Position numbers and translations under genes: made by a program. This document shows, in pieces, positions 25,269 to 28,471 of a stretch of DNA of 64,000 bases. The notes beneath the pieces are model-generated. The model made no database searches. It saw nothing but the letters and a program-made list of their open reading frames with translations, and was not told the origin of the DNA. The DNA is from Gramella sp. Hel_I_59 (GTDB lineage Bacteria > Bacteroidota > Bacteroidia > Flavobacteriales > Flavobacteriaceae). Each line of letters starts with the position of its first letter. Positions within the stretch are counted from its first letter, which is position 1. The stretch spans positions 1,674,001 to 1,738,000 of the forward strand of contig NZ_VFME01000001.1 in NCBI RefSeq assembly GCF_006714895.1. Reading direction: 5' to 3'.

Positions 25269-27194
25269 TTATACATCTAAATCAAAAGTTGCTCGCAATT
25301 GGTCGAGTAGAGGATTGGCCTCTTTCAGTTTTTCGTATTTTTCCTGCGGAGTAAACGCGTACTTTTTAGAAACAGCTTCGTCCACATGAATGATCAGCCT
25401 GATATGCGTATTTCTAAGTCTGGCTTTTAGAAAATTCATCAGTCTGTTTTCTTCCCGTTCCAGATCGATCTTCATCGTTTCATTCGGAAAGGTGAGATGA
25501 ATATCTCTATTTTCAAGGCTGGGTGTTTGCGATTCGAATATAGATGCGAGAATCTTTTCACCTTTATTCTTCAGTTTTTCTGAATAATTTTTCCACTCCC
25601 GTACCATATCTTCTTCGGAAAACTCATCATCCATTACCTCTTCAACAGGTAACATCGCTTTTTGTTTTTCCGCTAGTTCCTTTTTCTTACCAATACTTTT
25701 TAAAGACAGGCCAGAAACCTTTTCCCGTTTGATCTCCGGAAAAATCTTTTTCGTTCCAACAGGTTTCTCTTCAGTAACTTCCCTAACCTCTTGTACTTCG
25801 GTTTTTTCAGTAGCGGTCGATGTCTGCTTCGGAAGGTTTAAAGAATCCTGATTTGCAACTGTTTCAGATTTGGTTTCAGTAGCATTAGTATTAGTATCAG
25901 TTGAAGTTTCCGTAGAATCTGAAGGACTCTCTTTAGAATAATAAGTTGCCTCTTCTGGTTTAGCACACGATTCTGGTGCTTTTTTAGGATCTGGAAGGCC
26001 AATATCTTCAGCAGGAGTAGAGCTGTCATGCTCATTTTCCCTTAGCAATTCCTTCTTCTCGTTCGATATTTGAACCGAATGTTGAGTGAAATGTTCCGGG
26101 GGAACTATGTTGCGATCAGACTTTTTTTTTTGAGTATCGAAAGTGATCGATGCCAGTTGCATTAAGCAAAGTTCAACTAGCAATCTTTGATTCTGACTCG
26201 TTTTATATTTTAAATCGCAGGAATTTGCCAATTCGATTGCTTCCATCAAAAATTGATGTGAAGTTTGTTGAGACTGTTCAAAATAACGAGCTTTCGTCTG
26301 TTCTCCGACTTCTAGCAATTGGATGGTTTTTTGATCTTTGCAAACCAGAAGATCTCTAAAGTGCGAAGCCAATCCTGCAATAAAATGATGTCCATCAAAT
26401 CCTGTAGATAGGATTTCATTAAATTTCAGAAGTGATTGAGGAATATCATTCGCGAGAATCATATCGGTTACCTGCATATAAGTGTCATAATCCAGAACGT
26501 TCAGATTTTCTGTAACTGCCTGTCTGGTAAGCTCATTTCCACTGAAACTAACCACACGATCATAGATAGATAATGCATCCCGCATGGCACCATCAGCTTT
26601 TTGAGCGATAATATGCAAGGCGTCATCTTCTGCTTTTACACCTTCCTGTTCAGCGATATAACCGAGATAGTTCTTCGCATCTGTAACAGTAATTCTCTTA
26701 AAATCAAAGATCTGGCAACGGGACAGGATCGTTGGAATGATCTTGTGCTTTTCTGTCGTGGCCAGTATAAAAATAGCATGTTTTGGCGGTTCTTCTAAAG
26801 TCTTCAGAAATGCATTAAATGCAGAGGCAGATAGCATATGCACCTCATCTATAATATAGACCTTATATTTTCCAACCTGTGGCGGAATACGAACCTGGTC
26901 AATAAGATTTCGAATATCATCTACCGAGTTGTTCGAAGCAGCATCCAGTTCAAAAATATTAAAAGCAAAATCTTCGTCTGGAGCCTGTGTGCCATCATGG
27001 TTGATCATTTTTGCAAGGATACGCGCGCAGGTAGTTTTACCTACACCACGAGGTCCCGTAAATAACAAAGCCTGGGCAAGATGGTTGTTATGGATCGCGT
27101 TCGCGAGCGTATTGGTGATCGCTTGCTGTCCAACAACATCTTTGAATGTTTGAGGCCTGTATTTACGTGCTGATACTACAAAATGTTCCATCAA
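25269..27194 (-). CDS. dnaX: DNA polymerase III subunits gamma/tau
   Basis: Clamp-loader ATPase, 641 residues as read in one frame (tau-like). Walker A GPRGVGKT is at about 47-54, the DELH-type Walker B is IIDEVHML, and sensor 1 is ATTEKHKIIPTILSRCQ. The four-cysteine zinc module normally inserted after Walker A is absent: the sequence passes straight from ARILAKMIN to NIFELDAASNN. Domain III ends near residue 350; an acidic, Thr/Glu-rich linker (about 375-500) leads to a C-terminal tau domain. Codons 355-358 contain A10, where slippage either way gives an almost immediate stop and a gamma-sized protein. A perfect -7 element lies at 27209-27216; the start may be the first or second Met (27194 or 27191). 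Confidence 0.96.
   Translation of the reverse strand: MMEHFVVSARKYRPQTFKDVVGQQAITNTLANAIHNNHLAQALLFTGPRGVGKTTCARILAKMINHDGTQAPDEDFAFNIFELDAASNNSVDDIRNLIDQVRIPPQVGKYKVYIIDEVHMLSASAFNAFLKTLEEPPKHAIFILATTEKHKIIPTILSRCQIFDFKRITVTDAKNYLGYIAEQEGVKAEDDALHIIAQKADGAMRDALSIYDRVVSFSGNELTRQAVTENLNVLDYDTYMQVTDMILANDIPQSLLKFNEILSTGFDGHHFIAGLASHFRDLLVCKDQKTIQLLEVGEQTKARYFEQSQQTSHQFLMEAIELANSCDLKYKTSQNQRLLVELCLMQLASITFDTQKKKSDRNIVPPEHFTQHSVQISNEKKELLRENEHDSSTPAEDIGLPDPKKAPESCAKPEEATYYSKESPSDSTETSTDTNTNATETKSETVANQDSLNLPKQTSTATEKTEVQEVREVTEEKPVGTKKIFPEIKREKVSGLSLKSIGKKKELAEKQKAMLPVEEVMDDEFSEEDMVREWKNYSEKLKNKGEKILASIFESQTPSLENRDIHLTFPNETMKIDLEREENRLMNFLKARLRNTHIRLIIHVDEAVSKKYAFTPQEKYEKLKEANPLLDQLRATFDLDV
26122..26131 (-). 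promoter_or_regulatory. A10 slippage tract inside dnaX (candidate gamma/tau switch)
   Basis: The coding strand reads CAA AAA AAA AAG TCT. One extra A, or a -1 ribosomal shift, gives AAA GTC TGA (stop). One A fewer gives AGT CTG ATC GCA ACA TAG (stop). Both truncate the protein at about residue 360, after clamp-loader domain III. A small hairpin GTTCC-CCC-GGAAC (26093-26105) lies 16 bases downstream. Confidence 0.6.
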
Positions 27195-27304: not shown

Positions 27305-27616
27305 GAAGCAGGCCGCCTTATCGCTTCGACATATACCTTGGAGAGGAAAGTCCGGACACCACAGGGCAGTATAGTGGGTAACGCCCACCGATCGTGAGAT
27401 CAGGACCAGTGCAACAGAAAGAATGTACAGGTTAAGCTGTAGTGAAACCAGGTAAACTCTATGCGGTGCAATGCCATGTAAACCGGCATTTAAGGATCGC
27501 CCGTCCGTTGCCGGAGGGTAGGCAGCTCAAGATTAGTGGCAACGCTAATTTCAGATAAATGATAAGGAATCCGATCTTTTTATCGGATGACAGAATCCGG
27601 CTTATAGGCCTGCTTT
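27305..27616 (+). ncRNA. rnpB: RNase P RNA (class A type)
   Basis: The catalytic RNA that cuts the 5' leader from tRNA precursors. The conserved 5' core is GAGGAAAGTCCGGAC (from 27351), followed by ACCACAGGGCAG. The 3' core includes CAGAATCCGGCTTATAGGCC. P1 is formed by AAGCAGGCC (27306-27314) and GGCCTGCTT (27607-27615), which fixes both ends and a length near 310 nt. A perfect -7 element precedes it by five bases. Its 3' end abuts the stop codon of the convergent GH16 gene (27617-27619), so the T-run after P1 is shared with that gene's last codons. Confidence 0.95.
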
Positions 27617-28471
27617 TTAATTCTCAATTTGCTGGTACACCCGTACATAATCGATCTTGAATTTCTGCGGAAACTTCGAATCATCGATCTCGCCAGCCCA
27701 TTTCCCTCCAAGTGCTAGATTTATCAGTATAAAGAATGGTTTTCTAAACGGATTGTTACCGGTTCCGGCATTTGCAATTTCAAACGTATGATATACTTTA
27801 TTATCTACCAGAAATTGGATGCGATCCCTGTTCCAGTCTACTGAATACACATGGAATTCTTCTGAAACATTATCGATATATATAGTGTCAGTTTTGGAAA
27901 CCATCTCGTTTTTATCATTGGCATAATGAACACTTCCATGAATTTCTCCCTGGTTTTTCCCAACGTGTTCCATAATATCGATCTCACCAGCTTCCGGGTA
28001 CACTACATCTTCGAAATTTAAACCTAACATCCATATAGCTGGCCAGGAGCCGGCAGCCTTTGGTAAACTCGCTCGAACATCTATTCGGCCATATTTGAAA
28101 TCAAACTTTCCTGAGGTGTGAATGCTACCAGAAGTGTAATTGGTTTCCGGTGTGTTGAGGCGATAATCTTTTATTGCAGGATCGTAATCTGGGTTTTCAT
28201 AATACTCGTTCCTGGCGGTTATAATTAATTTACCATTTCTAACGCGGACGTTTTTCTTTCTAGAAGTATAATACTGTGCTTCCAGATTCCTAATGAATCC
28301 AGTTTCGTAACTCCATTTATTTGGATCTGGTTTTCCTGAATGATTGAATTCGTCTTGCCATACCAGTTTCATTTCCTGAGCATTCATCATCGCGCTTGTA
28401 AAAAGTAGAATAGTAAAAGCAGCGGTTAATTGTAACCCTTTAAAACTTCTAATTCTGGGGCAGCATTCCAT
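27617..28471 (-). CDS. Glycoside hydrolase family 16 (laminarinase-type endo-glucanase)
   Basis: An exported endo-beta-glucanase that probably cuts laminarin-type beta-1,3-glucans. From the ATG at 28471 it has 284 residues; the frame is open to 28591 but the extra residues lie wholly inside the upstream gene and contain no signal. A signal peptide (about 1-32, ending MNAQ) is followed by one GH16 jelly-roll. The catalytic ExDxxE is AGEIDIMEHVG with the nucleophile at about E163, D165 and the acid/base E168; a substrate-binding GSWPAIWMLG precedes it and VDWNRDRIQFLVDN follows. No carbohydrate-binding module or T9SS domain is attached. It overlaps the upstream small gene by 23 bases. GH16 also includes agarases and carrageenases; the EIDIMEH form favours laminarinase. 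Confidence 0.88.
   Translation of the reverse strand: MECCPRIRSFKGLQLTAAFTILLFTSAMMNAQEMKLVWQDEFNHSGKPDPNKWSYETGFIRNLEAQYYTSRKKNVRVRNGKLIITARNEYYENPDYDPAIKDYRLNTPETNYTSGSIHTSGKFDFKYGRIDVRASLPKAAGSWPAIWMLGLNFEDVVYPEAGEIDIMEHVGKNQGEIHGSVHYANDKNEMVSKTDTIYIDNVSEEFHVYSVDWNRDRIQFLVDNKVYHTFEIANAGTGNNPFRKPFFILINLALGGKWAGEIDDSKFPQKFKIDYVRVYQQIEN

Follow-up and report, generated by a model that had tools for sequence, protein, structure and literature searches.

To our knowledge, recoding of dnaX has been tested in few bacteria. In Escherichia coli, ribosomal frameshifting within the gene is established (PMC1088944; PMC5009743), and the dnaX gene of Thermus thermophilus undergoes transcriptional slippage at a run of nine A (Larsen et al., 2000, as described in PMC1088944 and PMC5009743). 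According to the second of these accounts, nine consecutive A or T are enough for highly efficient slippage by bacterial RNA polymerase, whose RNA:DNA hybrid spans 9–10 bp (PMC5009743). Antonov et al. (2013; PMC3711429) reported 17 dnaX genes from 12 genera that are split at a frame transition, nine of them with A10, and proposed slippage there; the string ‘Flavobacter’ does not occur in the main text of that article. For Roseiflexus IS630, a stem-loop in the nascent RNA has been described as stimulating slippage (Penno et al., 2015, as cited in PMC5009743). Among the open-licence papers listed for slippage or frameshifting in Bacteroidota dnaX, we found no title or abstract describing a family-wide run site or a hairpin on its 5′ side.

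We analyzed a 64,000-nucleotide stretch of the genome of Gramella sp. Hel_I_59 (the window), which contains a 640-aa open reading frame with the following features.

25269–27191, minus strand: dnaX, full-length (tau) frame, 640 aa, start ATG at 27191, identified by profile and PDB matches
26145–26528, minus strand: clamp-loader domain III, residues 222–349, Pfam match to PF12169
26133–26154, minus strand: imperfect stem-loop GG.AUCGA-loop-UCGAU.CU (−5 kcal/mol), 3′ end 1 nt before the run
26122–26131, minus strand: putative slippery run of ten A (coding order 26131 to 26122), from the sequence and its conservation in genus and family
26116–26118, minus strand: TGA stop read in the sequence after gain of one A in the run (or a −1 ribosomal slip), predicted product 358 aa
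26105–26107, minus strand: TAG stop after loss of one A from the run, predicted product 361 aa, formed by the ATA codon at 26108–26106 and the G that follows
26093–26105, minus strand: downstream hairpin GTTCC-CCC-GGAAC, 13 nt, −4.9 kcal/mol, 16 nt past the run
25272–26121, minus strand: tau-specific tail (linker and C-terminal domain) as read from the open reading frame, missing from the predicted short products

The 640-aa frame is DnaX, as an earlier note on this DNA had supposed: it scored 717.7 bits against the DNA polymerase III gamma/tau profile NF011531 of NCBIfam, whose cut-off is 685, and also matched TIGR02397, and solved E. coli DnaX chains in the PDB matched the protein at E 1.6e-58. 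Codons 354–358 read CAA AAA AAA AAG TCT in the tau frame, also as claimed, so that the run starts five residues past the end of the domain III match (residue 349). A class A RNase P RNA (RF00010, 213.6 bits; 27305–27620, plus strand) lies divergently, just upstream of dnaX.

As in Thermus dnaX, a single frame encodes tau, a long A run lies past the clamp-loader domains with near stops in both other frames, and the predicted short product is gamma-like. The site differs from that of Thermus, where A9 lies ‘seven-eighths’ through the gene, in that A10 stands at codon 354 of 640 in a member of another phylum and that a hairpin accompanies it on the 5′ side in most of the family. On this comparison the locus would be of an already known kind, a Thermus-type dnaX slippage site, and the new part would be the terminator-like stem-loop that abuts the run in the family together with a frame that drifts.

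The earlier note had argued that so long a pure A run is hard to keep by chance. The dinucleotide make-up of the window alone gives no such rarity (one A10 seen versus 2.39 expected in dinucleotide shuffles; 84 of 100 shuffles contained one), but the genome and the relatives of the gene bear the argument out. Genome-wide, only five A10 runs occur in 3,436,904 bases, both strands counted. Within the genus, dnaX was present in all 24 genomes searched, that of the window included, and exactly A10 stood at the same codon in every one (24/24). Among the lysine columns of dnaX that are invariant in the genus (24), a single codon is kept only in the three within the run; elsewhere in the gene, the codon is invariant in 1 of 25 invariant glutamate columns and in 2 of 13 invariant glutamine columns. 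By this comparative evidence, the run in dnaX is not a product of chance.

A comparison of the run across Flavobacteriaceae dnaX genes had been proposed as a check, and it turned out in favor of the site. Our family sample comprised 149 genomes, one per genus, of which 144 had dnaX; all 144 were taken, and 143, including the window, could be examined at the site (L236 ends before it). At least nine A were kept in 141 of these 143 (5 A9, 115 A10, 18 A11, 1 A12, and 2 A13), although related loci are not independent and the family and genus counts overstate the evidence. The two loci without a run of nine, L237 (A5) and L246 (A8), belong to genomes of 2.2 and 1.6 Mb, respectively, and L237, whose frame is short, may have decayed or may encode gamma only. 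As a control, we looked elsewhere in these genes: up to the end of domain III, no stretch of A exceeded eight in any of the 143, and 3′ of the run the longest one reached 9 or 10 in 4/143.

The run also extends beyond the family. It reached at least nine A in 70 of 80 named genome records, these being the best 80 of 593 confirmed relatives. The ten records of this set without it (L081, L092, L105, L110, L112, L116, L117, L130, L131, and L136) are mostly Bacteroidales by title, yet other Bacteroidales records carry the run. A phylum sample contributed 30 genomes of other families within the same order or class, and 28 of them had at least nine A. Run lengths are those of the longest stretch of A in the ~135 nt that follow domain III. 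Outside the class this search zone was widened to ~390 nt, which makes the count obtained there, 17 of 40 loci hand-picked from 147 matched genomes, the least certain one. A 41st locus outside the class (L298) was too short and was left out.

Changes in run length lead into stops in both other frames. As predicted in the earlier note, A11 gives AAA GTC TGA and A9 gives AGT CTG ATC GCA ACA TAG, and both would truncate the protein near residue 360, just past domain III (358 and 361 aa; the PF12169 match ends at 349). In the genus, the frame reached by gain of one A stops within 3 codons in 24/24 loci, and both off-frame stops fall within 12 codons in 24/24, versus a background of 36%. Among the 116 family loci whose tau frame is continuous across the run, gain of one A leads to a stop within 3 codons in 111, loss of one A to a stop within 12 codons in 114, and both stops fall inside the 12-codon limit in 114/116; at other positions of the same genes the figure is 46%. 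An I-I-P-like motif ([IVL][IV]P) usually supplies the second stop through an ATA codon. All 24 genus loci have this motif, and 21 of them open it with ATA. In the family it is present in 115 of 139 loci; its first codon is ATA in 88 of these and of the form xTA in 108. At the first motif position, ATA is used in 88 of the 90 family loci that encode isoleucine there, versus 25% of isoleucine codons in tau-in-frame genes. Codon choice at the motif favors ATA, and the third-frame stop is constrained. This constraint favors slippage by the polymerase, which yields both longer and shorter runs, since a −1 ribosomal shift uses the first of the two off-frames alone.

The earlier note had pointed to a small hairpin 16 bases downstream of the run. 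It is present and folds well in the window (0 of 200 shuffles folded as well), but it is not conserved: it was predicted in just 3/24 genus members (L001, L006, and L007). We therefore rejected it as a stimulator, and it is probably incidental. In the window, the stem-loop on the other side of the run is about as unusual (2 of 200 shuffles folded as well, for a hand-chosen segment).

Across the family, the 5′ side stands out. The 40 nt upstream of the run had a mean folding z of −1.56, with 38% of loci below −2 (n = 141; mononucleotide shuffles). The commonest form, CTCTATCA-CTTT-TGATGGAG followed by the run, is common to 48 loci. A bulge-free stem of −4 kcal/mol or better ending at most 4 nt from the run was found in 104 of 141 family loci, whereas the nulls gave 12% with synonymous codon replacement and 1.7% at other positions. 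With bulges allowed and the end at most 2 nt from the run, the count was 113/141 against nulls of 21% (synonymous) and 5.7% (other positions). Codon use in the arms departs from that of the family: columns 347, 348, 349, 350, and 353 rank 15, 7, 3, 8, and 9 of 300, while the 3′ arm column 352 ranks 56 and the loop codon 351 ranks last; the top two columns fall elsewhere in the gene, away from the arms. Over 77 distinct sequences, pairing was possible in 0.667 of cells, above the maximum of 0.636 in 500 column shuffles, a control that ignores relatedness. At least 7 of 8 pairs formed in a fixed register in 24 of these 77 sequences, and among those 24 one pair occurs as A-U, G-C, G-U, and C-G. 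Taken as comparative evidence, these results indicate that the 5′ hairpin is strongly selected across the family.

The hairpin is not evenly spread. In the window's genus it occurs in 5/24 loci versus a null of 16%, no enrichment, and three members (L025, L026, and L027) have a strong one while most others lack it. The enrichment is weak in Bacteroidia whose record title or group code places them outside Flavobacteriaceae (28/76 versus a null of 25%) and was not seen outside the class (1/17 versus a null of 18%). Within the family, a hairpin accompanies 104 of 114 A10 loci versus 10 of 25 others, in raw counts that correspond to 5 independent pairs on supported branches. We found no significant link between lack of the hairpin and a G after the run, the base that ends the E. 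coli heptamer (Fisher p = 0.20), and no resolvable link between frame arrangement and hairpin. The closest described logic is that of Roseiflexus IS630, where, as in most of the family, a stem-loop lies directly 5′ of the slippage motif, with a terminator-like logic. That system, in the account cited, slips on T5C5 with a one-base deletion, whereas the present run is A10 in a cellular housekeeping gene, with a hairpin that is imperfect in the window and unenriched in its genus.

In 139 family loci the sequence was long enough to judge the frame of the tau tail, which is in frame in 116 and out of frame in 23; 20 of the latter need one more A and 3 one fewer to restore tau. Among named relatives, two Flavobacterium loci (L070 and L071) show the out-of-frame arrangement. 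The window does not have this two-ORF form. The out-of-frame tails seem intact: the C-terminal domain is present in 22/22 complete out-of-frame family tails and, with all sets pooled, in 62 of 69 complete out-of-frame tails versus 200 of 222 in-frame ones. The tau-frame motif beside the run survives in 18/23 out-of-frame versus 96/116 in-frame family loci, a rate of retention that speaks against both decay and an independent gene with its own internal start. With a tail that is out of frame yet seemingly intact, the 23 loci would need slippage to make tau. For ten Flavobacterium-type tails, a dN/dS comparison gave a median pN of 0.26 and pS of 0.66, which only weakly indicates purifying selection because synonymous sites are near saturation in most listed pairs.

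The run remains A10 in 13 of the 23 out-of-frame family loci, so the frame there is set by flanking changes and not by run length. On a FastTree tree of 141 loci (residues 1–335), the frame arrangement has to change 19 times or more, a count that is inflated by weak support, as few branches are well supported. A few A9 out-of-frame cases could be assembly errors. The overall pattern suggests that the length of the run is maintained even as the frame drifts. These relatives match the two-ORF dnaX genes with A7–A10 of Antonov et al. (PMC3711429), which likewise have a poly-A junction; the window differs in that tau is in frame, and a 5′ hairpin is unmentioned in the part of that article concerned. 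Bacteroidota dnaX genes of these genomes that look split or frameshifted are probably intact.

From these observations we propose, with a probability of roughly 0.77, that A10 is a programmed slippage site through which one gene would give two DnaX proteins, mainly by the action of RNA polymerase. On the T10 template the RNA:DNA hybrid would be all rA:dT and could realign, so that a share of dnaX mRNAs would carry 9, 11, or another number of A. Messages with 10 A (or 7 or 13) would encode tau, 640 aa plus or minus a lysine, and all others would run into an early stop and yield a gamma-like protein of ~358 or 361 aa. This product would keep domains I–III and lack the tau tail, with a presumed gamma-like function. 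In most of the family, the stem-loop abutting the run probably stimulates slippage as a terminator hairpin acts on RNA polymerase; in the window's genus this stimulator would be mostly weak or absent.

An obvious alternative is that the ribosome slips, making gamma by −1 programmed frameshifting at the in-frame A_AAA_AAG as in E. coli. The two sites do share this heptamer with a −1 stop beside it, correctly phased and with the stop within 3 codons in the window and in 24/24 genus members. The bias toward one additional A in the out-of-frame family loci (20/23), equivalent to a −1 ribosomal slip, is also what ribosomal slippage predicts, and an SD-like GGAG touches the run in 82 of 141 family loci, though in 0 of 24 genus loci. 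We read this GGAG as the 3′ arm of the putative 5′ hairpin. Unlike E. coli dnaX, the site has no SD-like stimulator at a distance (a 4-mer 7–20 nt upstream of the run in 0/24 genus and 2/141 family loci) and no conserved downstream stem (mean z −0.56 in the genus and −0.36 in the family, mononucleotide shuffles). Nor does it match RF00382, the E. coli dnaX element, which was not found around the site at E up to 10, in the window at the gathering score, or in any of 20 genomes including the window's own (at most 150 candidates scored in each), whereas the E. coli control was positive. In 106/141 family loci a T or C follows the run, and the heptamer there consequently lacks its final G. Bacteroidia ribosomes are reported not to read SD sequences, those lacking bS21 excepted (PMC9976891), and F. 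johnsoniae has been described as a poor frameshifter at prfB (PMC12421855). The run is also longer here than in E. coli and a third-frame stop is present, and ribosomal slippage requires neither a run of at least nine nor such a stop. The constraint on the third-frame stop, the missing E. coli-type stimulators, and ribosomes blind to SD sequences together favor transcriptional slippage of the Thermus type, with RNA polymerase as the inferred slipping agent, and we consider a mainly ribosomal mechanism unlikely; the ribosome could nevertheless add a share of the 358-aa form at the in-frame heptamer. The earlier note had held that the arrangement matches either logic. A gamma/tau switch by slippage is upheld by the comparative evidence, and the choice of agent narrows toward transcription on account of the third-frame stop and the missing stimulators.

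Three further readings take the run or the frames differently. That the homopolymer flips in length between cells by replication slippage, as in phase variation, would suit the known lability of such tracts, the A9–A13 range of the family, and the repeated changes of frame arrangement on the tree, yet A10 is held in 24/24 genus and 115/143 family genomes, and over half of the out-of-frame loci (13/23) keep it with a frame set by flanking changes, which makes this reading very improbable. Scarcely credible is a run that plays no part in slippage and is kept for the protein, as a patch of lysines following domain III: the run does encode KK or KKK in the loci listed, but only its own lysine codons are invariant in the genus, where the 21 other invariant lysine columns vary in codon, and the off-frame stops and out-of-frame tails would be left unexplained. 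The 22 complete family tails that are open and out of frame could likewise be taken for separate, internally started genes, the tau/gamma split being a fission. The tau-frame motif directly 3′ of the run is kept in 18/23, however, and the distance to the nearest downstream in-frame ATG has a median of 119.5 codons in the 20 loci that need one more A and 95 in the 3 that need one fewer (minimum 21; GTG and TTG excluded), and we give fission just as little credence as the lysine patch.

Programmed transcriptional slippage at A10 invites a broader conjecture, which we regard as evenly balanced between right and wrong. Bacteroidota would make both DnaX forms through a frame-indifferent transcriptional cassette of ~10 A, the length of the hybrid, tuned by the hairpin in Flavobacteriaceae; selection would hold the run, hairpin, and stops while the organization flips between tau encoded directly and the reverse, and the window's genus would have largely lost the hairpin. 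Nearly every sampled genus of the family keeps the site, as do many other loci of the phylum, which suggests that it is a usual Bacteroidota route to gamma and tau. In the hairpin next to the run, a housekeeping gene would have a terminator-like stimulator of slippage, and its many natural variants, along with relatives that lack it, are available for comparison. The genus itself (L001 and L005–L027) offers a natural contrast on the role of the hairpin, with the run in all members and the hairpin in few.

Of the other four A10 sites of the genome, one lies outside any 100-codon frame and three lie inside frames or at their starts: in a 291-aa frame (L342, around 1195), in a 310-aa frame (L340, around 1186), and directly after an ATG (L341, around 1067). 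Such in-frame sites are possible further slippage genes. By inspection, without a family search, the 291-aa protein resembles a putative DNA adenine methylase.
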